Shown here in pieces: positions 14,565 through 43,813 of a stretch of DNA of 64,000 bases (the first letter of the stretch is position 1; every line of letters starts with the position of its first letter). The translations under genes and the position numbers were made by a program. The DNA comes from Saccharopolyspora gloriosae (lineage in GTDB: Bacteria > Actinomycetota > Actinomycetes > Mycobacteriales > Pseudonocardiaceae): NCBI RefSeq assembly GCF_014203325.1, contig NZ_JACHIV010000001.1, positions 6,573,501 through 6,637,500 on the forward strand. The letters are read 5' to 3'. A model generated the notes under the pieces. The model saw only the letters and a program-made list of their open reading frames with translations, was not told where the DNA came from and ran no database searches.

Positions 14565-14905
14565 CTGCTTTGGTGGTCGGGTGGCGGAACCTCAGTGCCT
14601 TCCTCGCTGCGGGATCTTTTTCCCTAGTGGCTCCGCCACGAGGGAAAAAGCCGTCCTCGCGAGGAAGGCGCTGAGAACCCGCGGGTGAGGACTTCTCGAC
14701 GTGGGCTATGTGCTTCGCACATACAGGCACGGCTCCGCCGCAAGGCGGACTTCGCTTCGCTCGTCCAAAGCACGGCTTCACCGCGAAGCACGGCCCTCGG
14801 CCGCAACGCAGGCGTGGCTTCGCCCGCCCAAGGCACGGCTTCGCGCGCGCAAGGCACGGCTTCGCCGTGAGGCACGGTCTTCGGCCGTTGGGCAGGCGTG
14901 CCTTG
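14565..14905 (+). repeat. interspersed covarying hairpin element, copy A with long tail
   Basis: This is the longest of four copies in the window. Homology to copy C begins around 14565. The core hairpin runs from CTCAG at 14591 to CTGAG at 14675. Outer arms carry the variable 7-mer TGCCTTC / GAAGGCG, complementary apart from one T-G wobble. The inner stem is CTTTTTCCC / GGGAAAAAG topped by GTGGC-TCC-GCCAC. After the core comes the mini-hairpin TATGTGC-TTC-GCACATA, then an array of CACGGCTTCGCCG-like units to about 14905. It lies about 30 bp after the beta-helix gene. The remainder up to 15226 is unremarkable. Confidence 0.85.
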
Positions 14906-15226
14906 CCGCCCACTGCTCGGATTGATGCCAGGCACGTCGTTCACTGTGCGGATTTGTTGCTGGGTGGGGCTTTTTTGGGGTGGCGGGGTCGGATTCGGGG
15001 TGGGGCGGGCCTTGGTCGCTTCTGGGGTGGTTGGGCTGAATGGCCGTCACTCGAAGTGTTGATGTCGGGGGATTGTGCGCGGATGGCGGAGGGGGAATTG
15101 CGCCGCGTGTGCTAAATCAAGGTGGCCTGATCGCGAAATTCGGAGGTCACCGTGGAGATCCGCTCTGCCCGTTCCGGCCGTCGGCGGTCCCCGAGCCCTG
15201 GTGAATCCTCTGTGGACGGTCACCGG

Positions 15227-16099
15227 ATGTTCGTGCGGCGGTGGGGCGTGGTGTGCGCGGTGGTCGTCGCGTGCGGCGCGGCGCCGGTGGTCGCCGACGC
15301 CGCGGAGCCGCTGGACTACGTCGCGCTCGGCGACTCCGCCGCGGCCGGGCCGCTGATCCCCGGCCCGGACCCGAACCTCGCCTGCCTGCGCTCGACGCGG
15401 AACTACCCGCGCGTCACCGCCGACGCGCTCGGCGCCCGGCTCACCGACGCGACCTGCTCCGGCGCGGAGATCGAGGACTTCACCGGGCGCCAGCACGGTT
15501 TCCTGCCACCGCAGTTCGACGCGCTAAGCGCCGCCACCGACCTGGTCACCGTCACCATCGGCGGCAACGACGTCGACCTGGTGGGCGCCGCGGTGAGCTG
15601 CCTCAACGCCTTCCCCGAACCGTTCGGCAAGTCCTGCGCCGACGAGTTCACCCAGGACGGCCGCGACGAGCTGTCGAGCAGGATCGCCGGCATCGAAGGC
15701 GATCTCGACGCGGCGCTCACCGGCATCACCGACCGGGCGCCGAACGCGAAGGTGGTCGTGGCGGGCTACGGCACCTACATCCGCCCCGGCGGCTGCTACC
15801 CGAAGGAACCGATCTGGGCGCGCGACGCGGACTACGTCCAGTCCAGCGTGGACGAGCTCAGCGACCTGCTCCGGGACCGCGCGGCGGCGCACGGCGCGGA
15901 GTTCGTCGACATCGGCGCGGTCAGCGAAGGCCACGACGTGTGCGCCGCGCCGCAGGACAAGTACCTCGAAGGCGTGCTGCCGACCTCGGTGGCCGCACCG
16001 CTGCACCCCAACGCCCGCGGCATGGCGGCCTTCGGCCGCGCCATCGCCGAATCCGTGCGCGAGGGTGCGGCCCGCACGCCCGCCGACGACGCGGCCTGA
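15227..16099 (+). CDS. secreted SGNH/GDSL hydrolase
   Basis: A 290-residue exported esterase or lipase-like enzyme with a signal peptide (MFVRRWGVVCAVVVACGA, ADA cleavage near residue 25). Family blocks are YVALGDSAAAGPLIP (block I, nucleophile Ser), TVTIGGNDVDLVG (block III, Gly/Asn oxyanion) and a late APLHPNARGM (catalytic His, with its Asp expected just upstream). Several cysteines in the mature protein fit the disulfide-bonded secreted actinobacterial lipases. The start is uncertain: an in-frame GTG at 15152 would add 25 residues, but the hydrophobic signal begins at ATG 15227, where no strong ribosome site is seen. Confidence 0.85.
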   Translation: MFVRRWGVVCAVVVACGAAPVVADAAEPLDYVALGDSAAAGPLIPGPDPNLACLRSTRNYPRVTADALGARLTDATCSGAEIEDFTGRQHGFLPPQFDALSAATDLVTVTIGGNDVDLVGAAVSCLNAFPEPFGKSCADEFTQDGRDELSSRIAGIEGDLDAALTGITDRAPNAKVVVAGYGTYIRPGGCYPKEPIWARDADYVQSSVDELSDLLRDRAAAHGAEFVDIGAVSEGHDVCAAPQDKYLEGVLPTSVAAPLHPNARGMAAFGRAIAESVREGAARTPADDAA

Positions 16100-16153
16100 C
16101 CCCGCGTCGCGACGGCACCTGACCCGCCCCGGTGCCCAGGGCGGCGTCAGGGT

Positions 16154-16192
16154 GAGCGGCCCGTTCGTCCCGTGATGGCGGACGGGCCGCTC
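16154..16192. terminator. terminator hairpin related to the 53.8-kb repeats
   Basis: Arms GAGCGGCCCG (16154-16163) and CGGGCCGCTC (16183-16192) pair perfectly between the convergent lipase and ROK genes. The left arm plus loop, CGGCCCGTTCGTCC, also occurs in the two hairpins at 53754 and 53850, so this belongs to a dispersed terminator-like family. Confidence 0.7.
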
Positions 16193-16242
16193 GCGTCGCA
16201 CCACCGGCGCCGGGAGATTTCGGGAATCCCGCCCGGGTCCGC

Positions 16243-17457
16243 TCAGCCGCCGAGCAGGTTCGCCAACCGCGGCGAGTAGGCGTGGTCCAGCACCAGCGAA
16301 GCCGCCCCCACCGCCCCGGCGTCCTCGCCGATCAACGCCGAATGCACCTCGACGGGACGCACCCCCGCCGCCCACACCTGGGCGTGCAGCACCTTGCGCA
16401 CCCGCTCCCGGATGATCTCGCCCGCGTGCCGCAGCGCCGGACCGCCCAACACCACGCGGTCCACGTCGAGCACGCTGACCACCGTCGCCAGCGTCTGCCC
16501 GAGCCTGCTCGCCGCCTGCCGCAGCAGCCGCGCCGCGGCGGTGTCGCCCTGGGCGGCGTCCCGGCAGATCCGCTGGTACACGTCGGACACGGCCGCGTCC
16601 GCGCCGTCCCCGCCCGCGGCGGCCCACTCCCCGACGACGGCCCGCATCGAGCAGTACGCCTCCAGGCAGCCCCGCTTGCCGCAGGCGCACTCCTTGCCGG
16701 TGCCGGTGGGCAGGTGCCCGACCTCGCCCGCGTTGTTGCTGATCCCCCGGTACACCTGATCGCCGAGCACCACGCCGACGCCCACCCCGGAACCGAGGTA
16801 GACGTAGACGAACGAGCCCGCGCGCTCCACCCCGCCGGCCCAGCGCTCCCCGATGGCCGCGGCCGTCGCGTCGTTGTCCATCACCACCGGCAGGCCGGCC
16901 CGCTCCTGCACCAGGTCGGCGAGCGGAACCTCCGTCCAGCCGGGCAGGTTCGGCGGGCTGAACACCCGCCGGTGGGTGTCGTCCAGCGGCCCCGGTACGG
17001 CCAGCCCGACGCCGAGCACCCGCCCGTCGCCCGCTTCGGAACGCCGCACCAGGTGGTGGACGGTGCGGGTGAGCGCGCCGACGACGGCCTCCGGGGAGGC
17101 GCCCTCGGCGACCCGCCGGGTGCTGCGCAACCGCACCCGCCCGTCGAGGTCCAGCAGCACGCCGGTGATGCGCTCCGGGTCCAGGTGCAGCCCCACCGAT
17201 TGGTAGGCGTCCGGGACGACGCGCAGCATCACCCGGCGCTTCCCGCCGGTGGAGGGCGCGTGCCCGTCCTCGGTGACGAGGCCGTCGGCCATCAGCGCCC
17301 GCACGATGTTCGACATGGTCTGCGCGGTGAGCCCGGTTCTGCGGGCCAGTTCGACGCGGCTGACGCCGCCGTTCGCGCGGATCGCGTCGAGCACGACGGC
17401 GCGGTTGAACCCACCCACCCTGGGGAGGTTGGTGCCCTGCCAGAACTCCTGCTTCAT
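16243..17457 (-). CDS. ROK family transcriptional repressor
   Basis: A 404-residue sugar-responsive regulator. It has an N-terminal winged helix-turn-helix (about 15-70, SRVELARRTGLTAQTMSNIVRAL), then an ROK sugar-kinase-like domain with the metal-binding cluster CACGKRGCLEAYC and the DNDATAAAIGERW block. ATG 17457 was chosen because GGGGAG lies 8 nt upstream. The ATG 14 codons earlier has no ribosome site and would place coding sequence across the -35 region of the divergent promoter. It is transcribed away from the sugar ABC operon at 17649, which it probably controls. Confidence 0.88.
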   Translation of the reverse strand: MKQEFWQGTNLPRVGGFNRAVVLDAIRANGGVSRVELARRTGLTAQTMSNIVRALMADGLVTEDGHAPSTGGKRRVMLRVVPDAYQSVGLHLDPERITGVLLDLDGRVRLRSTRRVAEGASPEAVVGALTRTVHHLVRRSEAGDGRVLGVGLAVPGPLDDTHRRVFSPPNLPGWTEVPLADLVQERAGLPVVMDNDATAAAIGERWAGGVERAGSFVYVYLGSGVGVGVVLGDQVYRGISNNAGEVGHLPTGTGKECACGKRGCLEAYCSMRAVVGEWAAAGGDGADAAVSDVYQRICRDAAQGDTAAARLLRQAASRLGQTLATVVSVLDVDRVVLGGPALRHAGEIIRERVRKVLHAQVWAAGVRPVEVHSALIGEDAGAVGAASLVLDHAYSPRLANLLGG

Positions 17458-17485
17458 GCGGGGGCTCCCCGAGGCGCTCGTGTCG

Positions 17486-17515
17486 TTGACTTGCTTCATC
17501 GAATGGAATTACGGT
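17486..17515 (+). promoter_or_regulatory. sigma70-type promoter of the sugar ABC operon
   Basis: TTGACT (17486-17491), an 18-bp spacer and TACGGT (17510-17515) give a good housekeeping promoter reading toward the binding-protein gene, with a leader of about 125 nt. It lies between the divergent ROK repressor and the transporter, where an ROK operator would be expected. Confidence 0.6.
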
Positions 17516-17648
17516 GCAGTGTGATCCTGATCTCACAGTGGGCGCAAGCGCCGAGTGGGTCAGGGGATCGCGCAGCTCCTCGAAGATCGGCCGGCCCCGC
17601 CGGGGCGGCCGCGACGGTTCCGAGATGAGTTCCTCACCGGGAGGATCG

Positions 17649-18968
17649 ATGCGTCGCTGGCGATTACCCGTGGTCCTGACCGCCGCGCTGCTGGCCGTGA
17701 CGGGCTGCGGCGGCGGAGTGGCCGATGATCCGAACACGATCAACGTGACGTACCACCGCTACGGCAATTCGACTTACGTCGACACCTTGATGCAGCGGGT
17801 GAAGCAGCAGTACGAGCAGGCGCATCCGGGCAAGCGGGTCGCGCTCGACCCGGTGGTGGCGCCCGAAGGCGAGTACCTGTCGAAGCTGCAGCTGCGGATG
17901 CGCTCCCCATCGACCGCGCCGGACGTGCTCTACGAGGACAGCTTCACCATCAACTCCGACGTGGCGGCCGGCTACCTCGCCCCGCTGGACGAGCGGCTGG
18001 CGGACTGGCCGGACTGGGACCGGTTCATCGACACCACCAAGCAGGCCGGGCTCGCCACCGACGGCCGCACCTACGGGGTGCCGCTGGACACCGACACCCG
18101 CGGGATCTGGTTCAACCGCGACCTGTTCACCCGCGCCGGGCTGCCCGCCGACTGGAAGCCGCGCGACTGGGACGCGGTGCTGGACGCCGCGCGCCAGGTC
18201 GAGCGGCGGTTCCCGGACGTGATCGGCCTGGACCTGCCGCTGGGCAAGGCGGAAGGCGAAGCGGTGAGCATGCAGACCGTCGAAATGCTGCTCTACGGCA
18301 CCGAAACGGGGACCCTGCACGACGGCAAGTGGATCGCGCCGAACCGCGGCTTCACCGAGGCGCTGGAGTTCGTGTCCACCGCCGTCGAAGAAGGACTCAC
18401 GCAGAGCAAGGCGCAGATCGCCGACGCCCAGTACGACAAGAAGCTGCGCGACGACCTCACCAGGCAGGGCAAGGTCGCGATGCGGCTCGACGGCAGCTTC
18501 GCCGCCGGGCAGTGGGAGGCGTCGGGCTGGCAGGACTGGCCCTCGACGATGTCGGCGGCACCGATGCCCGCGCGGAACGGCGGGGGCACCGTGTCGATGT
18601 CCGGCGGGTGGACGCTGGCGTTGAGCGCGTCGGGCACGAAGCAGGACGACGCGTTCGAGTTCGTGAAGCTGGCGCTGAACCGGGACAACATCACCGAGTA
18701 CGCGCTGTCCTCCGGAAACCTGCCCTCGCGGGAGGACTCGGCGGCCGACCCGCGGATCACCGCCGCGAACCCGCTGGCCGGGTTCTGGTTGGGACTGCTG
18801 GACGACACCCACTACCGGCCCACGCTGCCGGAATACCCGAAGGTCTCCGAGGAGATCCAGCAGTCCGTGCTGGACGTGGTCGGCGGCGCCGACCCGGCGG
18901 AGGTGTCCGAGCGGTGGGCGCAGCAGGTGCGGCGCATCGTCGAACCGGCCAACACCCGGGGCGGCTGA
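17649..18968 (+). CDS. sugar ABC transporter substrate-binding lipoprotein
   Basis: A 439-residue family 1 solute-binding protein, exported and lipid-anchored: MRRWRLPVVLTAALLAVTGC gives a lipobox with Cys at residue 20. Landmarks are the strand INVTYHRYG after the signal, KLQLRMRSPSTAPDVLYEDSF, GVPLDTDTRGIWFNRDLF (the conserved family 1 middle region) and a C-terminal helical bundle. GGGAGG precedes ATG 17649 by about 5 nt. The substrate is probably an oligosaccharide. It is the first gene of a three-gene operon. Confidence 0.9.
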   Translation: MRRWRLPVVLTAALLAVTGCGGGVADDPNTINVTYHRYGNSTYVDTLMQRVKQQYEQAHPGKRVALDPVVAPEGEYLSKLQLRMRSPSTAPDVLYEDSFTINSDVAAGYLAPLDERLADWPDWDRFIDTTKQAGLATDGRTYGVPLDTDTRGIWFNRDLFTRAGLPADWKPRDWDAVLDAARQVERRFPDVIGLDLPLGKAEGEAVSMQTVEMLLYGTETGTLHDGKWIAPNRGFTEALEFVSTAVEEGLTQSKAQIADAQYDKKLRDDLTRQGKVAMRLDGSFAAGQWEASGWQDWPSTMSAAPMPARNGGGTVSMSGGWTLALSASGTKQDDAFEFVKLALNRDNITEYALSSGNLPSREDSAADPRITAANPLAGFWLGLLDDTHYRPTLPEYPKVSEEIQQSVLDVVGGADPAEVSERWAQQVRRIVEPANTRGG

Positions 18969-19873
18969 TGACGACCGCCGCGGTGGCCCGGCCGGCGGCG
19001 CGCAGGCGCGGCGCAGCGGTGTCGCGCTGGTTGCTGCCGATGGCGCCCGCGGTGCTGCTGCTCGGATTGTTCGTGGCGGGCCCGATCCTGTGGAGCGGTT
19101 ACGTCTCGTTCACCAACGCGGCGCTGACCGGCGCGGCGGCGACGGATCCGGAGTTCGTGGGGCTGGAGAACTTCCGCCGCCTGTTCGCCGACCCGGCGCT
19201 GTGGCATTCGGCGTGGGTCACGGTGGTGTTCACGGTCGGCTCGGCGGTGATCGGGCAGAACGGGCTGGGGCTGCTGATCGCGGTGCTCACCCGGCACCGC
19301 AACCGCCTGCTGCGCAACACCGTCGGCATCGCGGTGGTGTCCGCGTGGGTGCTGCCGGAGCTGGTGGCGGCGTTCGCGCTCTACGCGTTCCTCAACCCGG
19401 AGGGCACGTTGAACGCGCTGCTCGGCGCGGTGGGCCTCAACGAGCAGGACTGGCTCTACAGCGCACCGCTGCTGGCGGTGATCTTGGGCAACGTGTGGCG
19501 CGGCACCGCTTTCTCGATGCTGGTGTACCAGGCGGCGCTGTCCGAAGTGCCCACGGAGCTGGCGGAGGCCGCCGAGGTCGACGGCGCGGGCGCGCTGCGC
19601 CGGTTCTGGCACGTCACGCTGCCGATCATCCGCCGTTCGGTGCTCACGAACCTGATGCTGGTGACCTTGCAGACGCTGGGGGTGTTCACCTTGATCTACG
19701 TGCTCACCGCGGGCGGGCCGGGCGACGCGACGCAGACCCTGCCGCTGCTGATGTACGACGAGGCGTTCGAGCTGGACGAGATCGGGTACGGCGCCACGAT
19801 CTCGCTGGTGCTGCTGGCTGTCGGTGCGCTGTTCGCCGTGGTCTACGCCCGGACGCTGCGGGAGGAGGTATGA
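18968..19873 (+). CDS. sugar ABC transporter permease (MalF-like)
   Basis: A 301-residue permease whose ATG overlaps the preceding stop by one base (TGATG). There are six predicted spans, the first at about 23-43 (LPMAPAVLLLGLFVAGPILW), and the EAA loop ELAEAAEVDGAGALRRFWHVTLP for ATPase docking. GYVSFTNAAL and the following LENFRRLFAD are typical of CUT1 family permeases. It pairs with the next permease as a heterodimer. Confidence 0.92.
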   Translation: MTTAAVARPAARRRGAAVSRWLLPMAPAVLLLGLFVAGPILWSGYVSFTNAALTGAAATDPEFVGLENFRRLFADPALWHSAWVTVVFTVGSAVIGQNGLGLLIAVLTRHRNRLLRNTVGIAVVSAWVLPELVAAFALYAFLNPEGTLNALLGAVGLNEQDWLYSAPLLAVILGNVWRGTAFSMLVYQAALSEVPTELAEAAEVDGAGALRRFWHVTLPIIRRSVLTNLMLVTLQTLGVFTLIYVLTAGGPGDATQTLPLLMYDEAFELDEIGYGATISLVLLAVGALFAVVYARTLREEV

Positions 19874-25955: not shown

Positions 25956-25964
25956 CCTTTAACC

Positions 25965-26171
25965 AGCGGCGAAGCCGTGCCTTGGGTGGCGAAGCCACGC
26001 CTGCCTTGCGGCCGTAGGCCGTGCCTGTATGTGCGAAGCACATAGCCCACGTCCAAAAGGTGACGACCCGCGGGTTCTCAGCGTTCTTCTCGCGAGGACA
26101 GCTTTTTCCCTCGTGGCGGAGCCACTTGGGAAAAAGATCCCGCAGCGAGAAGAACGCTGAGGTTCCGCCAC
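25965..26171 (-). repeat. interspersed covarying hairpin element, copy B (inverted)
   Basis: Read on the minus strand this matches the other copies: GCGGAACCTCAG, variable arm CGTTCTT, constant core, complementary arm AAGAACG, then CTGAG. The 7-mers pair perfectly although they differ from those of copies A, C and D. The tail includes the TATGTGC-TTC-GCACATA mini-hairpin (25 bp region around 26030-26047) and CACGGCTTCGCC-like units toward 25965. It fills the space between the convergent oxidoreductase and dynamin-like genes. Confidence 0.85.
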
Positions 26172-26198
26172 CTGACCACTACGAGAGAAGAGCCGTGG

Positions 26199-28067
26199 TC
26201 ATTCCGCGCGGTCGCGGAGGCCGCGGATGGCGCCGAGGAGGTGTTCGGCGCGGTCGCGGCCGGAGGTGGCTTCAGCCAAGCGCTGCTCGGCGGTGTGCAG
26301 CCGGCGGCTGCGTTCGGCGGCGTCCATCTTCAGCGCCTTGTCGACCTCCCGCAGTTCCGCCTCGATCGACTCGATGCGCCTGCCCAGCGCGTCGTCCAGC
26401 GCCAGCGACAGCTGCTGCTCGGCTTCGATGAGCTGCTCGGACACCAGCTGGTCCAGCGCGGATCGCGCGTCGGCGATGGCCTCGGTGAGCCACTGCTTGA
26501 GGTGCTGCTTGTCGGCGGCGTGCTTGCGGGTGCGCGCCATCCACCAGCCCGCGCCCAGCCCGAGCACGATCGTCACCGGCAGCACCACCGGGTTCAGCAC
26601 GCCCACGCCGATCCCGGCCAGCGGCATCGCCGCCGCCCGGCCCACCCCGAGGCCGCCGGAGATGCCCATGAACACCAGCAGCTTGTCCTCGGCCGTCGGC
26701 GCGCGCTTGTCCGGTGGCCGCAGCGCGATGGGCGACTGCGCGCCGCGGGCGAACTGGGAGCGGATCACGTCGAGCTCTTCGGCGGAGAACAGCTCCGCCA
26801 GCGACACCTCCGCCACCTTCGCCAGCCGGGCCGACAGCAGCGCCGACACCCGCGAGGACACCATCTGCAACGCGGTGTCGACCTGGTGCGGCAGAGCGGT
26901 GAGCGCGCCGTGCTCGGCGGTGTCGATGGCGCGGCGGAACCAGCTCTGCACTTCCCGCATCTGCCGCGTCACCTCGTGGCTGACCTCGACGCGGGTGCGC
27001 TGGATCTCGCCGCGCAGCTTGAGCTGCCAGCCGCGGGTGGAGGAGCGCCGGGACGCGGCGAGCTCGTCGCGGCGGGCGCGCAGCGATTCGGCTTCGGCCT
27101 CGCCCACGGTCAGCGCTCGCTGCTCCGCGGCGAGCCGCACCGCGAGCTCGCCGAGCACGGTGGACAGCGCGCGCATCGTGTTCGCCTCGCCGAGCATCGC
27201 GGCCCGGCCGCCGACGAGCTGTTCCAGCGCGGAGCGCAGCTCGGTCACCCCGGAGCGCTCCCGCAGCATCGTGGCGGCCTGCTCGTTCGGCGCCTGCGCC
27301 GCGAGTTCCAGCATCCGCGCCGAGACCGGGTGGATCGGCACGTCGGCGAACCGCGGCGCGTGCTCGGCCAGCAGCCTGCGGTTCTCCTCCAGCACCTGCC
27401 GCCAGCCCCGGTGCTGGTCGGTCTTGGCGAGGGCGAACACCACGGTCTCGACCCGGTCCGCCGCGCCGTGCAGGAAGTCCAGCTCGCCGCGGGTGAAGGG
27501 GGCGGAGGCGTCGGCGACGAACAGCAGCGCGGTCGCGGCGGAGGCGGCTTCGGCGGCGAGCTCACCGTGGATGGAGTCCAGCCCGCCCACGCCGGGGGTG
27601 TCCACGATGGTCAGTTCGGCGAGCGAGTCCAGCGGCGCCTCGATGCGCAGGTGCCGGGGAGGTAAGGCGTCCGCGGGCAGGACTCCGCGCGCGGAGGCCC
27701 AGGACGGCAGCGCGTCGACGGCGAACTCGACGGGGTCGGCGTCGGCCGGGTAGCAGGCGAGTCCGCGCCACTGCTCGCCGTGGCGGAACTCCAGGTACGT
27801 CGACGTCGCCACCGAAGCGTCCACAGGGGACAGTCCGGGGCTGTCGATCAGGGCGTTCACCAGGGAGCTCTTGCCCCGGTTCGTCTCGCCGACCACCACC
27901 ACGCTCGGCACCCGAGGACGGGAGAGCCGCACCTCGTCCACCCAGTCCGCCGAGGAGGGGGCGGCTTCCCGCAGCAGCGCGAACAGCCTGTCCCTGGTCT
28001 GCTTGACCTGCTGGGGCAAGGCGGTGGCCGCCACGGGCACCCCGGTCGCCGGGCCGGCCGAAGTCAT
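26199..28067 (-). CDS. dynamin-like GTPase (membrane-associated)
   Basis: A 622-residue bacterial dynamin-family GTPase. G1 is GETNRGKSS (about 60-68), G3 is DTPGVGG (about residue 150), and G4 appears as AKTD. Beyond the GTPase domain are long helical stretches rich in Glu/Arg, and a glycine-rich hydrophobic segment (about 490-520, LNPVVLPVTIVLGLGAGWWM) likely inserting in the membrane. Helical coiled-coil sequence follows to the C-terminus. ATG 28067 has AGGAG 7 nt upstream. Family members such as DynA and IniA act in membrane fusion, repair or stress tolerance. A second dynamin-like gene lies 1.1 kb upstream. Confidence 0.85.
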   Translation of the reverse strand: MTSAGPATGVPVAATALPQQVKQTRDRLFALLREAAPSSADWVDEVRLSRPRVPSVVVVGETNRGKSSLVNALIDSPGLSPVDASVATSTYLEFRHGEQWRGLACYPADADPVEFAVDALPSWASARGVLPADALPPRHLRIEAPLDSLAELTIVDTPGVGGLDSIHGELAAEAASAATALLFVADASAPFTRGELDFLHGAADRVETVVFALAKTDQHRGWRQVLEENRRLLAEHAPRFADVPIHPVSARMLELAAQAPNEQAATMLRERSGVTELRSALEQLVGGRAAMLGEANTMRALSTVLGELAVRLAAEQRALTVGEAEAESLRARRDELAASRRSSTRGWQLKLRGEIQRTRVEVSHEVTRQMREVQSWFRRAIDTAEHGALTALPHQVDTALQMVSSRVSALLSARLAKVAEVSLAELFSAEELDVIRSQFARGAQSPIALRPPDKRAPTAEDKLLVFMGISGGLGVGRAAAMPLAGIGVGVLNPVVLPVTIVLGLGAGWWMARTRKHAADKQHLKQWLTEAIADARSALDQLVSEQLIEAEQQLSLALDDALGRRIESIEAELREVDKALKMDAAERSRRLHTAEQRLAEATSGRDRAEHLLGAIRGLRDRAE

Positions 28068-28543
28068 GCGCACGCTCCTGTCGCTGGGTCGGATGCCGCT
28101 CGGGCGCGGGTCTCGCCGCTGGAACCGATGGGATCCGGCGCGGGCGTGAATGTACCCGCCGAGTCCCGGCCGGCGGCCCGTTCCGCGCCCGGTCCACCCG
28201 ACTCGACGAGCTCATGCCCCGGTTGCCGCACGGGCCGTGGCGGGGAGCCGGTCGACGAACACCTGATCGTGCGGCGCGGTCGTCCCCGTTCGCCGCAGCC
28301 GCGCGCTCCACCGGTCGTGCTCCGCACCGCCCGTCGTTGATCTTGCCCAGGTGAGCGGCGTCGTCGGTCAGGCCGAGAGCGAAGGCGGACGTATCGGCCG
28401 ATCGGCCAGGTGTGCCGCCGCAGGGCACTGGCCGGAGGTAGTAGGAGCGTCGAGCCTGTCGGCTGATCCGCGAACCCCCGCTGACCGGCGATTCTGATGT
28501 CAGCCGCGGAACAGCGGCGAAGTCACCGGCAAGGAGGCACACC
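28068..28543. other. 476-bp divergent region between dynamin-like gene and small membrane gene
   Basis: This presumably carries promoters for the dynamin-like gene (minus) and for the small gene at 28544 (plus). I see no clear -35/-10 pair and no protein-like frame with a ribosome site. Confidence 0.3.
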
Positions 28544-37712: not shown

Positions 37713-37720
37713 TCATGCGC

Positions 37721-37786: not shown

Positions 37787-38063
37787 ATAGGATCTCGGCA
37801 AGATCGAGCCGTGATCACAGTTCCACCCGGATTCCGCGCAGGCCGAAACCTCTCCGCCGCCCGCCGGACGAAGTGGACGGATCGCGGCGGATCCGAGACC
37901 AAGGTGCCGAGCCTGGCTCGACACCTCCGGCACGGTCACCGCGCCAGTGAGCGCGGCGACCGGACGGCACAACAGAATCGACCGACTGCATTAGCGCTCG
38001 GGGGCGCCGGCGGTCGGGACGGGGGAGGGCCCGGGCTGTCATTCGGGGGATGGCCCGGGCCCT
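37787..38063 (+). ncRNA. possible small RNA or unknown transcript
   Basis: Between two terminator hairpins there is an isolated -10-like TAGGAT (37787-37792) and, about 235 bp later, a strong hairpin followed by a T-rich GTGCTTTT. No convincing protein frame with a ribosome site lies between, although a GTG frame from 37811 remains open. A promoter plus terminator without a gene suggests a small RNA of roughly 260 nt. This is weak evidence. Confidence 0.25.
38026..38063 (+). terminator. terminator hairpin with T-rich tail
   Basis: AGGGCCCGGGC (38026-38036) pairs with GCCCGGGCCCT (38053-38063), an 11-bp perfect stem with a 16-nt loop, followed by a stretch of T. It lies more than 300 bp after the last gene, so it is unlikely to serve the ABC exporter. 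Confidence 0.65.
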
Positions 38064-38092
38064 GTGCTTTTCTGGTTGTTTTCACGGCTCGT

Positions 38093-38335
38093 TTTGCTTT
38101 GGTGTCCGGGTAGCGGAACCTCAGTCGGTCTCTCGCTGCGGGATCTTTTTCCCAAGTGGCTCCGCCACGAGGGAAAAAGCTGTCCTCGCGAGAGACCGAC
38201 TGAGAACCCGCCGGTGAGGACTTCTCGACGTGGGCTATGTGCTTCGCACATACAGGCACGGCCTTCGGCCGCAAGGCAGGCTTGGCTCCGCCAGCCCAAG
38301 GCACGGCTTCGCCGCAAGGCAGGTCTGGGTTTGCC
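38093..38335 (+). repeat. interspersed covarying hairpin element, copy C
   Basis: The upstream flank TGCTTTGGTG is shared with copy A. Core from CTCAG (38119) to CTGAG (about 38204). The variable arms TCGGTCT / AGACCGA pair perfectly. The constant inner stem here reads CTTTTTCCCAAGTGGC on the left. The tail carries the TATGTGC-TTC-GCACATA mini-hairpin (38236-38252) and several CACGGC-type units. It lies between the ABC exporter and the universal stress protein gene, whose 3' end faces it. Confidence 0.85.
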
Positions 38336-38347
38336 GCCTCTGGGCGG

Positions 38348-38815
38348 TCAGATGGTGGGGCGTACTACTAGGACTGGGCAGGCTGCGTGGCGGACGCATT
38401 GTTCGGCTACTGAGCCTAGGAGGAGGCCGGCGAAGCCGCCTCTGCCTCGGTGGCCGACCACCAGGAGGTCCGCGCCTCGGGAAGCTGAGAGCAGGGCCTG
38501 GGGGGACGGGGAGTGCACGATGTGGCGCTGGATCGGGACGGGCGGGGGGTCGCCCAAGTGCTCCTGGACGATCTTCTCCGTCGACTCGTCCACCGACTGC
38601 TGGTAGGCGTCCATGCTCGGCACCGCGCCGGGCGGGCAGTCCGCGGGGCGCGGGGCGGTGCGCATGCTCCACGCCCGGACCACGTGCAGCGCCCCGCTGC
38701 GCAGGCCCGCCTCGTGCGCCGCGACCTCCAGCGCGCGCAGCGAAGACGGTGATCCGTCGACGCCGACGGCGACGCCGCCGTCCAGTTCGACTCGCTGCAC
38801 TGTGCTTTCCACCAC
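38348..38815 (-). CDS. universal stress protein (UspA family)
   Basis: A 155-residue single-domain USP. It starts with strand GGVAVGVDGSPSSLRALEVA and ends with the ATP-binding signature GHRGRGGFAGLLLGSVAEQC followed by CPVLVVRP. A long inserted segment around residues 50-85 (TAPRPADCPPGAVPSM) resembles the DosR-regulon USPs of mycobacteria. The start is one of two consecutive GTG codons (38815/38812), with GAGGAGG and GGAGG sites upstream. It is divergent from the hypothetical gene at 39036. Confidence 0.88.
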   Translation of the reverse strand: MVESTVQRVELDGGVAVGVDGSPSSLRALEVAAHEAGLRSGALHVVRAWSMRTAPRPADCPPGAVPSMDAYQQSVDESTEKIVQEHLGDPPPVPIQRHIVHSPSPQALLSASRGADLLVVGHRGRGGFAGLLLGSVAEQCVRHAACPVLVVRPTI

Positions 38816-39035
38816 ACCTCCACTTCACCTCCTCGCGCCCGCGCTGTCGACTTGGCCACCCGAACGAGTCCGATATGTGATGATTCGCGGCTAGGGTGGA
38901 GAACTTCACATGATCGATGCACTGTGGTAATGCATAGGCAGGACGCGTGTTTCCACACCAACGCCGCTGAGGTGCATGCGCCACGACGACCGCCACAGCG
39001 GTTCGCGTGAGTTCCCAACAGCAGATAGGTGGGTC

Positions 39036-39605
39036 ATGGTCCATTCGACCGAGTGCTCGCCGGAGCGGCGCAACCCGCTGCTGAACCGGCGTTCCCAGAC
39101 CGACGTCCAACTGGTGGCCGTGCCGCGGCTGGAGTGGTCACTGGCCACCGAAGCGCACCCGACCGTCGCCGAAGCCGCCGCGCCCGCCTCGATGCGCCGC
39201 AGCTGGATCCACACCGCTCCCGAGCAGAAGGTGCTCGAGCTCTACCGGAAGTTGCACGGACCCGCGAGCAGGCTGCCCGCGCCGTGGTGGCTGCGCGCGC
39301 TGGACCGCGGCGAGCTCGCCTCCCGCGACGAGGGCTTCGCCCTCGAAGACGACGTGCACCGGCTGCTGGCCGGTCGCGGCGGCTGGTTCTTCGTGCCCTG
39401 GGCGGGCGTCGGCGAGACCGGGTACTGGGAGTACGGGCCCTCCGAACGCGGAACCCGGCACGCCCCCACCACGGTAGCGCTCACCGACCGGCACCCTGGC
39501 TGGATCCAGGTGGTCGCGGCCTACACCGACGGGCCGTCGCAGCCGTTGCCGCTGAGCGGTCCGGACGGCTTGCTCGCCGCGTTGCCGGTCGTCGAATCCT
39601 GGTAG
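39036..39605 (+). CDS. hypothetical protein, 189 residues
   Basis: I do not recognise this family. The protein is cytosolic, with no signal or membrane segment. The N-terminal 60 residues look disordered; the rest is Trp-rich and globular (WFFVPWAGVGETGYWEYGPS, ending in VVESW). ATG 39036 follows an AGGTGGG site at about 6 nt, and codon use is normal. It sits 37 bp before trmB, but trmB seems to have its own start signal. Confidence 0.65.
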   Translation: MVHSTECSPERRNPLLNRRSQTDVQLVAVPRLEWSLATEAHPTVAEAAAPASMRRSWIHTAPEQKVLELYRKLHGPASRLPAPWWLRALDRGELASRDEGFALEDDVHRLLAGRGGWFFVPWAGVGETGYWEYGPSERGTRHAPTTVALTDRHPGWIQVVAAYTDGPSQPLPLSGPDGLLAALPVVESW

Positions 39606-39641
39606 CCGCGCCGCCGGACGGGTTTGCGATACTGGTCCCCT

Positions 39642-40355
39642 GTGAGCACTTCTGACCAGCAGGTCCAGCATCGCCGCTCGATCGTGAGCTACGTCCAGCG
39701 CGGCGCTCGGATGACCGTCGGACAGCAGCGGGCGTGGGATCGGCACTGGTCCGCGATGGGCGACTCCGTCGACGCGCTGCCCCCGGGGCGGCTGGACACG
39801 GACGCCTGGTTCGGCCGGACCGCGCCCGTCGTCCTGGAGATCGGCCCCGGCATGGGCGAGACGACGGCGCAACTGGCCGCCGCCGCACCCGAGGTCGACC
39901 ACTTGGCCGTCGAGGTCTACAAGCCGGGCCTGGCGCAGCTGCTGCTGCGCGCCGAACACCTGGAGCTGGCGAACCTGCGGCTGCTGCGCGGTGACGCGGT
40001 GGTGCTGCTGCGGGAGCACTTCGAGCCGGGCTCGCTGTCGGGCGTGCGGATCTTCTTCCCGGACCCGTGGCCGAAGAAGCGCCACCACAAGCGGCGGCTG
40101 GTGCAGGCGGAGACGGTGGAGCTGATCGCGTCCCGGCTCGCGCCGGGCGGGTTCGTGCACCTGGCCACCGACTGGGAGAGCTACGCCGAGCAGATGCTCG
40201 AGGTGTGCTCGGGCGTGCCGGAGCTGCGCAACCGGTACGCCGACGAGCCGGGCGGCTGGGCTCCCCGGCCGGAGTGGCGGCCCGTCACGAAGTTCGAGAA
40301 CCGCGCCCACGACGAAGGCCGGGTCATCCACGACCTGATCTTCGAGCGGGTGTGA
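39642..40355 (+). CDS. trmB: tRNA (guanine-N7-)-methyltransferase
   Basis: A 237-residue SAM-dependent methyltransferase that makes m7G46 in tRNA. Family motifs are SYVQRGARMT near the N-terminus, the SAM loop VLEIGPGMGETTAQLA, IFFPDPWPKKRHHKRRLVQ (substrate and tRNA contact), HLATDWESYAEQML and the C-terminal PVTKFENRAHDEGRVIHDL. GTG 39642 was chosen as the start; a GATACT sequence 8 nt upstream suggests a leaderless transcript. The gene converges on the degenerate ABC ATPase with only 15 bp between stops. Confidence 0.95.
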   Translation: MSTSDQQVQHRRSIVSYVQRGARMTVGQQRAWDRHWSAMGDSVDALPPGRLDTDAWFGRTAPVVLEIGPGMGETTAQLAAAAPEVDHLAVEVYKPGLAQLLLRAEHLELANLRLLRGDAVVLLREHFEPGSLSGVRIFFPDPWPKKRHHKRRLVQAETVELIASRLAPGGFVHLATDWESYAEQMLEVCSGVPELRNRYADEPGGWAPRPEWRPVTKFENRAHDEGRVIHDLIFERV

Positions 40356-40370
40356 ACCTCCCCGCGGTGC

Positions 40371-41093
40371 TCAGGCGGCGACCGGCAGGTCCAGGACGCC
40401 TTCGCTGAGCCGGACGGCGCGTCCCGCCCGGGGGCCGCGCGCGGTGCGGGGACGCTGCGCTCGGACGGTGGACCAGGTCGGGCGCTGCGCCTGGACGGTG
40501 AGCGACGGCTCCGCCATCGCCAGCACCACCGCGATCCCCGCGGCGCGGGCGGTGTCGACGAGTTCGCCGACGGTGGACTCGGTGAGGGCCGGGTCGTCCG
40601 CGAAGATCACTTTCGGGCGGTGCGCCATGGCGCGGGCGACGGTCAGCCGCTGCACCTGAGCGGTGGAGAGCTGTCCCGGGAAGCGCTCCCGCATCCCGTC
40701 GAGGCCGAAGTCCCGCAGCACGCTCAGCGCGAGCGCCATCGCCGCGGCGCGGTCGGTGCCCGCCAGCATCTGCGGCAGCGCGCAGTTCTCCTGGGCGTTG
40801 AGCTCGGGGACGAGCATCCCGTCGCCGAACACGAACCCGAAGTCGCGCCGCCGCACCTCGCTCAGCTCGTGGTCGGTGAGCCGGTCCAGGCGCACCCCGT
40901 CGAGCAGCACCGCCCCCTCGTCGGGGCGGCGCAGGCCGGCGAGCGCCTGCAGCAGCGCCGTCCGGGCCTGCGGGGACGGGCCGTCGAGCGCGGCGACCGC
41001 GCCGGGCTCGACGGTGAAGTCCACTCCGAACAGCTGCGGCAGCGCGGTCAGGTTCCGCGCCTCCAGCAGTGGTGCCGTCGATGCAGTGGGCAC
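40371..41093 (-). CDS. orphan ABC-type ATPase with degenerate nucleotide motifs
   Basis: A 240-residue protein with the layout of a LolD/MacB-type ABC ATPase but altered at each key motif. The P-loop reads GPSPQARTALL, losing the invariant Gly-Lys pair. The signature is LSTAQVQR in place of LSGGQQQR, and Walker B is VIFADDPALTES, with Asp at the catalytic Glu position. The sequence is otherwise well kept (LAGLRRPDEGAVLLDG, ELNAQENCALPQML). It has a good GAGGAG site before GTG 41093 and normal codon use, so it is not an obvious pseudogene. No permease gene is adjacent. It may be a non-hydrolysing regulatory subunit. Confidence 0.75.
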   Translation of the reverse strand: MPTASTAPLLEARNLTALPQLFGVDFTVEPGAVAALDGPSPQARTALLQALAGLRRPDEGAVLLDGVRLDRLTDHELSEVRRRDFGFVFGDGMLVPELNAQENCALPQMLAGTDRAAAMALALSVLRDFGLDGMRERFPGQLSTAQVQRLTVARAMAHRPKVIFADDPALTESTVGELVDTARAAGIAVVLAMAEPSLTVQAQRPTWSTVRAQRPRTARGPRAGRAVRLSEGVLDLPVAA

Positions 41094-41259
41094 TGTCCGC
41101 TCCTCTCACCTGCCGGTTCGCACCGGATCGCCTTGGGGTGTGCAGAAACCTTCTCGCGAGCGAGCGGTCCGGTGCGTCGGGCGGAGGGACATCCCTCGTC
41201 GACCGATCGGCCAAGCCTTTCGAGCCGTTCGGCCAAGCCGTTCGGCGGTCGCCGGGCAT

Positions 41260-41265
41260 TAGGGT
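41260..41265 (+). promoter_or_regulatory. leaderless -10 element TAGGGT
   Basis: TAGGGT lies 6 nt before GTG 41272 of the histidine kinase; no ribosome site is present. Confidence 0.55.
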
Positions 41266-41271
41266 CGCGGC

Positions 41272-42978
41272 GTGAGCTCCAGCCCGACGCCCCCCTCGTT
41301 GGCGCAGCGACTCAGTCGTCTCGTGCGGGCGCGATGGGTCCTCGCCACGCTGATGACGCTGCTCTGCTGCGTGGACATCGCGTTCGCCGTGCAGCGCGGC
41401 GGCCCCGAACTGATCGCCCTACCGGGAGCGGCGCTGCTCGCGTTGTTGGCGGTGCGGGGCCGTTCGCATCCCGCGTTGTGCGGGCTGGCGGCGGCGGCGG
41501 TGCTGGTGCTGTCTTCGGGGCTGTTCCGCGTGGTGGATCCATTGGGGCACGGCCCGATCCTTCCCACCGAGAACGCGGCGGCCGTGCTGCTGGTGCTGTT
41601 CGCGCACCGGAGGCTGCCGCCGTTGAAGGCACTGCCGATCACCGGTGCGCTGGCGCTGGCCGCTTTGGTGTCGCTGGTCGTGCGCTCCTCGATACCGGAC
41701 ACCCGGACCCTCGCGTTCGGAATGTTGCAGCTGTTGCTGGCCATGGGCACCGGGACTTACCTGCGCGGTTGGCAGCCGACGGTCGTGCGGGCCCCGCTGC
41801 TGGAGCTGTTCAGCAGGCAATGGCCGATGATCGCGGGGCTGACGGTGCTGGTGTTCCTGGAAGGCAACGCCTACCTGGAGGACCGTCCCTACGCGATAGC
41901 CATGCTGCTGGGGGCGGTCGTGCTGGCGGTACTGGCGGTGCTCGCGCCGCTGCGTCCGCTGGAGACCGCGCTGCTGGGCGCCAGTGCGCTGGCCTGCATG
42001 GGCGTCGTGAACGTGCTGCTCGGCGCGCGCGAGATGTCCTCGGCGATCCTGCCGCCGCTGCCGATCACGGCCACGGCGGCCGGGATGCTGCTGATGGCGT
42101 ACCTGGTTCGGCACGCCGCATACCGGAAGGCGTGGATCGGCGGGTCCGCACTGGTCGGTGCCGCGCTGATCGCCGTGGTCCTGGACGGGGCGGCCGAGAG
42201 CCCGCTGGAGTTCAGCACCACGTTCCGAACCCTCGCGCTCGGCGGGTTGCTGCTGGCGTTGTCGGTCGGGTCGGGGGTGTACTTCCGCACCCGCGACGGC
42301 GAGCGGACCCGGACGGTGGAGACGGCGGTGGAGCAGGCCCAGCAGGCGGAGCGGCTGGCGTTGGCGCGGGAGCTGCACGACGTCGTCGCCCACCACGTCA
42401 CCGGGATCGTGGTGCAGGCGCAGGCCGCGCAGATGGTCGCCGCGCAGAAACCGGAGGCCGCCGCCGAAGCCATGGAGCGCATCGCCAACAGCGGCACGGA
42501 GGCGCTGGTCGCGATGCGCAGGCTCGTGGCGAGCATGCGCGGCGCGGAACCCGCCGGAACCAGCGGCGCCACCGAGCAGGCCACCACCGACCTGGCCGCC
42601 GACCTCACGTCCTTGGCGGAAGGCGCGGGGCCGAAGGTGCGGCTGCTGCTCGACATCGGCCGCGAGGTGCCCCAGGAGGTGGCGCGCTCCGCGCTGCGGC
42701 TCGTGCAGGAGTCGCTGACGAACGCGGGCAAGCACGCCCCGGACGCCACCGAGATCCTCGTGTCGGTGCGGTCCCCGCAGGAACACCTGCACGTCCGCAT
42801 CACCGACAACGGTTCCGGCAGGCGCACCGCACCGGTCGGCGGCTCCGGAGGATACGGTCTCGTCGGCATGCGCGAGCGCATCGAGTTGCTCGGCGGCCGG
42901 TTCAGCGCGGGCCCCGGCGAGGGCACCGGCTGGCGGGTCGAAGCGTGGCTGCCGCTGGCCGAACGCGCGGCCGGGTGA
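41272..42978 (+). CDS. NarL-type sensor histidine kinase
   Basis: A 568-residue membrane kinase with about ten to twelve hydrophobic spans in the first 340 residues, more than usual for this class. The HisKA_3 box is ERLALARELHDVVAHHVTGI, followed by VQESLTNAGKHAPDATE (N box) and GSGGYGLVGMRERIELLGG (G boxes) at the C-terminus. It is followed 35 bp later by its response regulator. The signal is unknown. Confidence 0.92.
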   Translation: MSSSPTPPSLAQRLSRLVRARWVLATLMTLLCCVDIAFAVQRGGPELIALPGAALLALLAVRGRSHPALCGLAAAAVLVLSSGLFRVVDPLGHGPILPTENAAAVLLVLFAHRRLPPLKALPITGALALAALVSLVVRSSIPDTRTLAFGMLQLLLAMGTGTYLRGWQPTVVRAPLLELFSRQWPMIAGLTVLVFLEGNAYLEDRPYAIAMLLGAVVLAVLAVLAPLRPLETALLGASALACMGVVNVLLGAREMSSAILPPLPITATAAGMLLMAYLVRHAAYRKAWIGGSALVGAALIAVVLDGAAESPLEFSTTFRTLALGGLLLALSVGSGVYFRTRDGERTRTVETAVEQAQQAERLALARELHDVVAHHVTGIVVQAQAAQMVAAQKPEAAAEAMERIANSGTEALVAMRRLVASMRGAEPAGTSGATEQATTDLAADLTSLAEGAGPKVRLLLDIGREVPQEVARSALRLVQESLTNAGKHAPDATEILVSVRSPQEHLHVRITDNGSGRRTAPVGGSGGYGLVGMRERIELLGGRFSAGPGEGTGWRVEAWLPLAERAAG

Positions 42979-43013
42979 GTGCGCGCGTGGGGCACGACGA
43001 GGAGGATGTACCG

Positions 43014-43673
43014 ATGATCCGGGTGCTGATCGCGGACGATCAGGAGATGGTGCGGGCCGGTTTCCGGATGATCCTGGACTCGCAGGACTCCATCGAAGTC
43101 GTCGCCGACGTCGCGAACGGGCTGGACGCGGTGAGCCGCGCCAAGGAGCTGCGCCCCGACGTGTGCCTGATGGACATCCGGATGCCCGGCCTGGACGGCT
43201 TGGAGGCGACCAAGCAGCTCGCGGGCCCGGACGTCGCCGACCCGATCAAGGTCGTCGTGGTGACCACCTTCGACCTCGACGACTACGTGGCGTCGGCGCT
43301 GGCGAACGGCGCCAGCGGATTCCTGCTCAAGGACGCCGGTCCGGCGCTGCTGATCGAGGCGATCCACGCCGCGTCGCGCGGGGACGCCCTGGTGTCGCCG
43401 CAGATCACGGTGCGGCTGCTGAAGCACTTCGCGAAGCCGCCGGAACGGCCGCGCCGCACCGTGGAACCGCTGCGGGACGCGCTCACCGAGCGGGAGCTCG
43501 ACGTGGTCCGGGCGACGGCGCGCGGGCTCACCAACGTCGAGATCGGCGCGGAGCTGTTCATGTCGTTGTCCACGGTGAAGACCCACTTGGCCGCGGCCCA
43601 GACGAAGATCGGCGCCCGCAACCGCGTCGAAACGGCGTCCTGGGCATGGCGAAGCGGCCTCATGGAGGAGTGA
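43014..43673 (+). CDS. NarL/LuxR family response regulator
   Basis: A 219-residue regulator with receiver residues in LIADDQE, VCLMDIRMPGLDG (phospho-Asp), VVTTFDLDDY and FLLKDAGP, and a LuxR-type HTH near 150-215 (LTERELDVVRATARGLTNVE, STVKTHLAAAQTKIG). A GAGGAGG site lies 8 nt before ATG 43014. It forms a standard two-component pair with the preceding kinase. Repeat copy D follows its stop by about 35 bp. Confidence 0.94.
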   Translation: MIRVLIADDQEMVRAGFRMILDSQDSIEVVADVANGLDAVSRAKELRPDVCLMDIRMPGLDGLEATKQLAGPDVADPIKVVVVTTFDLDDYVASALANGASGFLLKDAGPALLIEAIHAASRGDALVSPQITVRLLKHFAKPPERPRRTVEPLRDALTERELDVVRATARGLTNVEIGAELFMSLSTVKTHLAAAQTKIGARNRVETASWAWRSGLMEE

Positions 43674-43707
43674 ACTGCTTGTCTCCGCTCTTGGCCTGCG
43701 TAGGGGA

Positions 43708-43813
43708 CGGGTGGCGGAACCTCAGTCGTCTTCTCGCTGCGGGATCTTTTTCCCTAGTGGCTCCGCCACGAGGGAAAAAGCTGTCCTCGCGAGAAGACGA
43801 CTGAGAACCCGCG
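43708..43813 (+). repeat. interspersed covarying hairpin element, copy D (core only)
   Basis: The shortest copy: GCGGAACCTCAG, variable arm TCGTCTT, constant core, complementary arm AAGACGA, CTGAGAACCCGC, then homology stops. It lacks the TATGTGC mini-hairpin and the CACGGC array found in A-C, so core and tail are separable. The 7-mers pair perfectly. A separate small hairpin, CAGCGGC-TTC-GCCGCTG, lies at about 43845-43861 before the amidohydrolase gene. Confidence 0.85.

Follow-up and report, generated by a model that had tools for sequence, protein, structure and literature searches.

A high-copy hairpin repeat with covarying stems, placed past gene ends in Saccharopolyspora gloriosae and its relatives

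The soil bacterium Saccharopolyspora gloriosae carries hundreds of copies of a 99-nt hairpin whose stems differ in sequence from copy to copy, largely keep their pairing, and tend to lie a short distance past the end of a gene. The chances are somewhat better than even that the element is an orphan, REP/REPIN-like family of non-autonomous palindromic repeats. On the best reading, the folded strand is the conserved substrate, and the family has spread and been homogenised within genomes. An earlier note on four of the copies had listed a non-autonomous element that folds among its options, and that option fits what follows.

The four copies lie in the window, by which is meant the whole 64-kb stretch of DNA that was analysed. 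Copy A occupies 14584..14682 on the plus strand (7-mers at 14596-14602 and 14664-14670, GTGG foot tag at 14581-14584), copy B 26070..26168 on the minus strand (7-mers at 26150-26156 and 26082-26088, GTGG at 26168-26171), copy C 38113..38211 on the plus strand (7-mers at 38125-38131 and 38193-38199, GTAG at 38110-38113), and copy D 43714..43812 on the plus strand (7-mers at 43726-43732 and 43794-43800, GTGG at 43711-43714). All four, with their 7-mers and the single T-G wobble in copy A, are present in the sequence as the earlier note described them. The extents it gave can also be found, but each copy really belongs to a longer unit, within which the hairpin proper, with ends GCGGAACCTCAG...CTGAGAACCCGC, measures 99 nt. 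Its nearly invariant interior block (CTCGCTGCGGGATC / GCTGTCCTCGCGAG) is flanked by two variable stems, and its mismatched loops are nearly fixed: AAC against AAC, TGC against one base, and a two-base bulge. The description of the core as near-invariant proved too strong, as the inner stem differs in some S. gloriosae copies and in copies from ten other genera.

The full repeat unit around copy C runs from 38089 to 38321 (plus strand), limits set by matches to many copies in genomes G003 and G005; it matches relatives across about 230 nt. Copy B sits in a stop-to-stop interval of 243 nt (25956..26198, minus strand) with convergent genes on either side, and orthologous intervals measure 4 nt (G004) and 46 nt (G001 and G002). 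The right module of the unit comes in different kinds. One, at 43844..43860 (plus strand), is a short second hairpin, P2 (CAGCGGC TTC GCCGCTG), and among the copies listed from other genera, many are followed by a short hairpin resembling it. Another, at 14683..14733 (plus strand) beside copy A, contains the short hairpin TATGTGC TTC GCACATA. A closing stem around P1 and P2 was considered and rejected, since duplex energies were the same once left and right flanks had been exchanged among copies (z of -0.3 in S. gloriosae, n=64; -0.2 in G003-5; -0.6 in G001/2; +0.5 in G089). Single copies alone had made such a stem look convincing. The only match above gathering threshold in the window to any of the 4227 models of Rfam is a tRNA elsewhere, and a permissive search with copy A and five loci from other genera gave only sub-threshold matches to miRNAs.

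Three of the four copies follow closely on a gene. The hairpin foot lies 29 nt past the stop codon of the gene upstream of copy A (12278..14554, plus strand), 30 nt past that of a dynamin-type GTPase gene upstream of copy B (26199..28073, minus strand), and 40 nt past that of a response-regulator/LuxR-type gene, as called, upstream of copy D (42987..43673, plus strand, the 3' part of ORF 40620-43673). The claim that all four lie just after a gene thus holds for A, B, and D and fails for C, which is 400 nt past the called protein gene. Copy C is, though, about 40 nt past a conserved block resembling a gene for a small RNA, with a hairpin and TTTT at its end.

Genome-wide counts bear out the claimed position after gene ends, as the placement is strongly non-random. 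Among 133 placed copies in S. gloriosae, 66 lie between convergent genes, 42 between tandem genes in sense, 24 between tandem genes in antisense, and 1 between divergent genes (3 further copies fall at the edges of stretches), as compared with background gaps over 100 nt, of which 91 are convergent, 210 tandem, and 101 divergent. None of the 133 is inside a called gene. Where there is an upstream gene in sense, the distance from stop to hairpin centre is 69-94 nt in 92 of 108 copies. A separate test based on ORFs put 102 of 180 copies in sense and 15-60 nt past a stop, where placing copies at random in the gaps of the fetched stretches would give 9.5%. Similar distances in sense are seen in other genomes: 28-44 nt for 12 of 13 copies in G004, 27-52 nt for 20 of 30 in G001/G002, 35-48 nt for 7 of 13 in G089, and 40-58 nt for 4 of 7 in G372. 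For G003, the ORF test places 7 of 26 copies at 27-39 nt and finds 15 without a qualifying ORF. We know of no rule of strict sense orientation and spacing for REPs, a point against a REP/REPIN-like reading.

The earlier note knew four copies and proposed a genome-wide search with the constant core, which collected hundreds: 217 exact cores (93 + 124) in S. gloriosae and 287 with up to two mismatches, with none in either case for a reversed control pattern. With up to one mismatch, the core occurs 267, 0, 0, 155, 42, and 86 times in six genomes of the genus, and the exact core was found in 4 of 390 genomes of the family (taken as Pseudonocardiaceae), all four from the same genus as S. gloriosae. 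From this one might suppose the repeat to be confined to the genus, an idea that was rejected, because the restriction is a property of the letters of the core. A covariance model, also proposed in the note, matches all six genus genomes and detects the architecture in 13 of the 50 genomes searched in the family, 12 of 46 genera. Matches in other genera range from 1 (G262) to at least 78 (G089, 82 candidates scored), counts that are lower bounds set by the candidates scored and in which one place may appear on both strands.

Beyond the family there is little. A right-half pattern with up to three mismatches matched 3 of 394 genomes of the class, a sample mainly from outside the family (only 3 are members): S. 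gloriosae, G262 of the same family, and G657 of another, whose single match is probably due to chance. Among 75 loci from named relatives, each a single stretch no longer than 16 kb, in which absence is weak evidence, one match was found (35.7 bits), in Actinopolyspora biskrensis, placed by NCBI in Actinopolysporaceae. Plasmids, phages, and viral contigs gave no copy at the sensitivity used, which diverged forms would escape; this, too, counts against a REP/REPIN-like reading.

The earlier note staked the fold on stems remaining compensated throughout the genome. The 7-mers pair perfectly in 140 of 180 parsed S. gloriosae copies, where 12.0 would be expected if arms were reassorted, far above chance. 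Beyond the four genomes that carry the TTTTTCCC core, perfect 7-mer pairing was seen in 32 of the 58 copies taken from G001/G002 and other genera; this weaker pairing counts against a REP/REPIN-like reading. Two-sided changes occur at 14 of 38 pairs among 41 sequences from the genus and at 21 of 38 among 30 sequences taken across genera (13 of them from the genus). In the latter set, 156 cells carry a two-sided change, as opposed to 54.1 in shuffles, and the covariation score is 0.351, compared with 0.098 when shuffled and no more than 0.120 with partners slid. Across genera, both stems vary with pairing largely kept, and loops and feet are nearly fixed. The claim that the fold is kept despite changing letters therefore holds both within the S. 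gloriosae genome and across genera. Covariation among paralogous repeats is not, by itself, proof of selection on RNA. The GGGAU/GUCC stem does contain conserved G-U wobbles, in 29 of 30 and 26 of 30 sequences, present as such only on the sense strand. Single mismatches in S. gloriosae copies comprise 11 T-G and 13 A-C, and selection on the RNA strand by way of G-U intermediates is in this respect without support.

How the stems change is another matter. The note attributed their differences to compensatory change, but two observations leave simple substitution site by site unsupported. The S. gloriosae copies form a catalogue of 7-mer alleles, and 30 of the 49 mismatched copies join two arms from that catalogue. 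With 3 flipped hairpins and 3 symmetrised feet among 226 copies, these joined arms look like traces of recombination, which favours a REP/REPIN-like reading. Also, in 17 same-strand comparisons of orthologous sites, the 7-mer was never kept, and in 11 of the 17 pairing was perfect on both sides despite the difference in letters. These 17 come from 26 orthologous comparisons, in 6 of which the S. gloriosae site has no element. The sites amount to a natural experiment on hairpin pairing: the hairpin often persists and the stem letters are always replaced, so that replacement of copies can be separated from compensatory mutation. Each genome seems to draw on its own letters: among copies chosen from the best model matches, one 7-mer occurs in all 13 fetched from G089 and one in 5 of 7 from G372, and neither genome has a 7-mer in common with S. 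gloriosae. Within the 140 perfect S. gloriosae copies, the 7-mer is linked to the type of right module (p 0.0005); its link with flank bases (p 0.0035-0.0065) and with the loop base (p 0.0095) is weaker, and none was detected with the bulge base (p 0.37) or the up10 marker (p 0.24). The element may be present in one genome and absent in another with flanking genes about 95% identical. Neither an insertion junction nor a target duplication appeared at the compared sites, where most of the intergenic interval differs; their absence counts against a REP/REPIN-like reading.

Of 284 copies, 251 carry a tetramer, GT[AG]G, at the hairpin's 5' foot, and 3 carry it at the opposite-strand foot; this tag was noticed post hoc, and in one tally of it one S. 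gloriosae copy was entered twice. Its background density is 0.012-0.032 per position, and we estimate at roughly 1-2% the probability that a conserved linker tetramer would fit GT[AG]G by chance. The tag recalls REPs served by Y1 transposases (PF01797; RAYT-type), of which the S. gloriosae genome gave no match. Y1 genes were found in 8 of 60 family genomes. When 11 stretches surrounding genes of this kind were examined, a copy turned up in just one, about 9.5 kb away from the Y1 gene, and the remaining ten, of 7-17 kb each, had none. The Y1 neighbourhood inspected looks like IS200/IS605 with TnpB. Mobilisation in cis by RAYT/IS605 was rejected, as Y1 genes and copies show no association in these genomes and stretches. 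The missing gene and the missing association count against a REP/REPIN-like reading.

If the family is nonetheless of this kind, copies within a genome would increase in number and replace one another, whether through transposition as a folded single strand, through ectopic gene conversion, or through both, giving each species its own repertoire of stems. A candidate enzyme that processes single strands would recognise loops, feet, and tag, and the stems would need only to pair. A role at the 3' ends of RNA is possible: so stable a hairpin in a 3'-untranslated region may end transcripts or block read-through, and this would help to explain the 3' location and the near-absence between divergent genes. 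The host may, on the other hand, be the one that maintains the hairpin, as a 3'-UTR RNA element (a factor-assisted terminator, a processing site, or a 3'-end shield) with protein-bound loops and selection for paired stems. This account, which we think possible but doubtful, makes good sense of the sense orientation and set spacing in several genera, of the narrow stop-to-centre and ORF-test distances in S. gloriosae, of the sense-strand wobbles, and of the element's persistence on the same strand at orthologous sites despite replaced letters. It makes less sense of copy C, which follows an RNA-like block already furnished with a hairpin and TTTT, of the failure of T-G to outnumber A-C, of the G003 copies in the ORF test, or of a number of matches that varies from 1 to at least 78, unlike a housekeeping signal. 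Nor would the element be a canonical intrinsic terminator, since the copies listed have no T run after the hairpin but G/C-rich sequence (e.g., GGGTGGTC, CGGTGGTC, GGCGGTGCCGG). A bolder combination, in our view unlikely, has a mobile 3'-UTR element, family-wide and conserved in roughly twelve genera, that inserts itself past transcript 3' ends, in sense and with set spacing, by a route independent of RAYT. The transcript may aid copying or targeting, and the host would use the unit as a replaceable transcript boundary, its stems overwritten genome-wide in each species.

Perhaps neither enzyme nor selection is needed. Template switching during replication, described in the available portions of PMC8794818 as able to create and maintain hairpins, could copy arm onto arm, and the expected footprints exist among 226 S. 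gloriosae copies: 3 symmetrised feet and 3 flips of the whole hairpin. However, if arm copying sufficed for the 7-mers, the AAC/AAC loop, only 5 bp away, should be erased more often than it is (212 of the 226 keep it exactly, 3 have it flipped, 3 have it paired throughout, and 8 carry a point variant), and dispersal, foot tag, and placement would be left unexplained; such neutral maintenance is improbable. Scarcely credible is that the copies are ordinary terminators, immobile and alike by descent from one. They do lie at gene ends and avoid divergent gaps, and element-free 3' ends show a mild excess of hairpins in their first 65 nt that is absent upstream of divergent starts. Against this stand the near-identity of hundreds of copies, the alleles peculiar to each genome, and the element's presence in one genome and absence from another whose flanking genes are about 95% identical. 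An orphan REP/REPIN-like family remains the preferred reading, and it is best judged beside known systems.

An intrinsic (Rho-independent) terminator is a stable hairpin shortly past a stop codon, and so is the element, which differs in its 99 nt, its set mismatched loops, its hundreds of related copies, and its want of a T run. Integron attC sites are folded, lie just past an ORF, and conserve structure over sequence, as here, but the S. gloriosae copies are dispersed and not in cassette arrays. The element is not described in the available portions of PMC3610266, PMC4681348, PMC3116915, PMC3733652, PMC8269248, PMC3765725, PMC6006769, PMC2267715, or PMC8794818, a set mostly outside the subscription literature, and the terms 'Saccharopolyspora' and 'actinobacteria' are absent from the main texts of PMC6006769 and PMC3733652, as far as these were available. 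All the same, the earlier view that no described family matches gives way, because features of REPINs (PMC3116915) and of REPs with GT[AG]G (PMC6006769), as set out in the accessible text, fit. REPINs have two conserved inverted ends and a hairpin spacer in which compensatory changes are common (Bertels and Rainey 2011, PMC3116915, in part). The element likewise has inverted ends that are conserved and, between them, a paired spacer that is less so, is dispersed and extragenic, measures under or about 100 nt, and varies in pattern between close strains. In canonical REPs the hairpin foot bears GT[AG]G, and REPs of the TnpA-REP/RAYT type, like the element, are extragenic hairpins with the tetramer on one strand's 5' foot (sections of PMC6006769). 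Their length of 20-40 bp (sections of PMC3733652) sets them apart from a 99-nt hairpin with set internal loops. Unlike REPINs, the element has a near-invariant block between two variable stems and lies mostly in sense at a set distance past stops, and no cognate RAYT/TnpA-REP gene (PF01797), often repeat-flanked in REP systems, was found in the genome. It shares with REPs and REPINs a high-copy extragenic palindrome, a GT[AG]G foot, and inverted ends with a covarying spacer. Since REPINs, so far as the accessible text of PMC3116915 goes, already have compensatory stems, the family is not a new kind of hairpin. REP/REPIN biology has so far been tied to RAYT transposases; what is new here is the same foot tag and covarying spacer, at high copy, in a genome where no RAYT was found, and an unusually strict position past gene ends, in an antibiotic-producing family.

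The four hairpins reported in the earlier note, copies A (14584-14682, + strand), B (26070-26168, -), C (38113-38211, +) and D (43714-43812, +), are real in the window sequence, each belonging to a larger unit. The 99-nt hairpin runs in the order GCGGAACCTCAG, a variable 7-mer, CTCGCTGCGGGATC, an inner stem-loop, GC(T/C)GTCCTCGCGAG, the complementary 7-mer and CTGAGAACCCGC. Pairing is interrupted at three places: AAC faces AAC below the outer stem, TGC faces a single base, and there is a two-base bulge. Folded as RNA with 12-nt flanks, copies A, C and D reach -75 to -79 kcal/mol, and as single-stranded DNA copies A and C give z of -8.0 to -8.6 on both strands. The unit containing copy C has about 230 nt in common with relatives. 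On the 3' side of the hairpin lies a right module, which simple motif rules assign mainly to two kinds among the 140 perfectly paired copies of the genome, one with a TATGTGC/GCACATA hairpin (72/140), the other with a CAGCGGC/GCCGCTG hairpin (62/140). At 14690-14880, 25984-26059 and 38221-38330, one kind consists of consecutive short palindromes (TATGTGC/GCACATA, GGCACGGCTTCGCCGC and others), the stems of which vary among copies with pairing preserved; this chain may be a second repeat family, carried along with the hairpin.

The earlier count of four proved far too low: the 16-mer core occurs exactly in 217 places (93 + 124) of the genome (GCF_014203325.1; 6.83 Mb in a single contig). Allowing up to two mismatches gives 287 (the reversed control gave none in either search), and the right half of the hairpin with up to three mismatches gives 351. 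From 100 stretches surrounding copies among the matches listed (these matches include 193 of the 217 exact core places), 180 full-length copies were parsed, together with 46 from three sister genomes, 226 in all, a set in which decayed copies are under-counted, since any copy outside the parsing pattern was discarded. The complementarity of the arms is seen well beyond the four copies, the 7-mers pairing perfectly in 140 of the 180 copies against 12.0 expected under reassortment of arms (in the sisters, 22/26 in G003, 10/13 in G004 and 5/7 in G005). The left 7-mers of the 180 copies fall into only 35 kinds: they form a catalogue of alleles and do not vary freely. In 30 of the 49 mismatched copies (of 226) both arms are also known from perfect copies, an indication of recombination within the core. 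The whole hairpin is flipped within its flanks in 3 of 226 copies, and the foot is symmetrised in 3.

How the letters change is seen at orthologous sites, for which 26 comparisons were begun from relatives' copies and led to the corresponding site here, with flanking genes 79-98% identical (the comparisons are partly non-independent, since two relatives served for some of the sites, and the G001 and G002 genomes nearly duplicate each other). The element was found on the same strand in 17, on the opposite strand in 2, in part in 1, and absent in 6. None of the 17 same-strand comparisons had an identical 7-mer, and in 11 both copies were perfectly paired with different letters; thus a hairpin is often still in place after a wholesale swap of its letters. 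The site of copy A carries TGCCTTC/GAAGGCG here (one T-G), CGTCCTT/AAGGACG in G005 and CGTCCTC/GAGGGCG in G004 (one T-G), and no element in G003, G001 or G002. In G089, of another genus, a single 7-mer is present in all 13 copies fetched, and no 7-mer is common to the copies of this genome and those of G089 or G372. Conservation of the fold, as first proposed, is upheld, but slow compensatory mutation at each site is not, the 7-mer differing in 17/17; to judge from the sequences, the process looks like genome-wide overwriting of hairpins. From copy number, presence or absence, and homogenisation we infer that the family is mobile, and no insertion event was seen at the sites compared. At two orthologous sites (L182:2475 against L009; L185:17156 against L006) two species carry the element on opposite strands, which suggests that the whole interval was inverted or that the elements arrived independently. 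In the draft of G005 the assembly breaks at the site of copy C, where contig C2 ends and C1 starts, as expected of a high-copy repeat.

Most copies keep to the ends of genes. With genes called by a simple codon-usage finder, 133 copies could be placed, 66 between convergent genes, 42 in tandem gaps in sense, 24 in tandem gaps in antisense and 1 in a divergent gap; a further 3 lay at the edges of stretches. Among background gaps longer than 100 nt, 91 are convergent, 210 are tandem and 101 are divergent. The distance from stop codon to hairpin centre is 69-94 nt in 92 of the 108 copies with an upstream sense gene, a spacing absent from the 24 antisense copies. A separate ORF test put 102 of 180 copies in sense 15-60 nt past a stop (45/180 had no qualifying ORF), against 9.5% for positions drawn at random from the gaps in the window and in the first 60 stretches. 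The same test gave 7/26 at 27-39 nt in G003 (15 without an ORF), 12/13 at 28-44 nt in G004, 3/7 at 29-40 nt in G005 and 20/30 at 27-52 nt in G001/G002; in other genera, 7/13 at 35-48 nt (G089), 4/7 at 40-58 nt (G372), 27 nt (G233), 35 nt (G216), and 4/6 at 29-42 nt in six further genera.

The main rival explanation is that the hairpin may serve the host at transcript ends, a role compatible with a REP-like origin. It is hardly a simple terminator: the copies listed have no T run after the hairpin, and upstream of copy C a conserved RNA-like block already ends in a hairpin and TTTT. Template switching, which would make one arm from the other, has left rare footprints in the copies, though it is improbable as the chief cause of arm pairing: the AAC/AAC loop lies 5 bp away from the variable stem, yet 212 of 226 copies have kept it exact and just 3 show it fully paired.

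The block upstream of copy C (37965-38070, about 107 nt) is 95% identical in G001/G002, against 71-81% for the flanking genes, and folds into two hairpins with G-rich loops, the hairpin and TTTT standing at its end. It looks like a conserved small-RNA gene, and no Rfam family came near threshold. Elsewhere in the window, a GC-rich palindrome is present as 58-nt direct copies (56609-56666 and 57769-57826; 98% identical, about 1.16 kb apart), and 54-nt copies of a palindrome-like GAACGG...CCGTTC (53753-53806 and 53849-53902; 96% identical, 96 nt apart) are possibly operators.

Of 390 family genomes, 4 contain the exact core, every one of them in the own genus. The repeat therefore seemed young and local at first, a notion overturned by matches in other genera to a covariance model built from 41 copies. 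The model matches all six genomes of the genus, with match counts limited to 150; of 50 family genomes it matches 13, which represent 12 of the 46 genera (own genus counted). A separate match, in Actinopolyspora biskrensis, is outside Pseudonocardiaceae by NCBI. Representatives of ten of the eleven other genera were inspected, with up to three mismatches tolerated per foot and block. In copies there and in A. biskrensis, the feet are conserved, as is the GCGGGATC / GTCCTCGC block, and the outer 7-mer and inner stem vary; with G001/G002 included, 32/58 have perfect 7-mers (13/30, 13/13, 4/7, 0/1, 1/1, 1/6). In an alignment of 30 sequences, 13 from the own genus, both partners change at 21 of 38 pairs, in 156 cells where shuffles give 54.1, with a covariation score of 0.351 against 0.098 shuffled and at most 0.120 with partners slid 1-3 columns; the poorly aligned apical helix (36.5% paired) is to be left out of this count.

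Neither the literature searched nor Rfam yielded this hairpin family. The earlier statement that no described family matches nevertheless needs amending, its kind being already known, that of REP/REPIN-like palindromic repeats. What is new is such a repeat with strict 3'-end placement, spread over about a dozen genera, and with no RAYT found in its own genome, where no PF01797 (Y1 transposase) protein was detected. Y1 genes are present in 8 of 60 family genomes, and 11 stretches around such genes contain one hairpin copy in all, 9.5 kb from the Y1 gene. The original observation is thus confirmed and of more interest than first stated, though of a known kind. Of 284 copies, 251 have GT[AG]G at the 5' foot, its third place A or G, and 3 have it at the foot of the other strand. 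An enzyme would recognise the feet, loops and this tag, and the stems would need only to pair. PMC6006769 gives canonical REPs the same tag at their hairpin foot, and PMC3116915 calls compensatory changes common in REPINs. Because both features match, the 99-nt hairpin family is probably an orphan REP/REPIN-like repeat, the folded strand being its conserved substrate.
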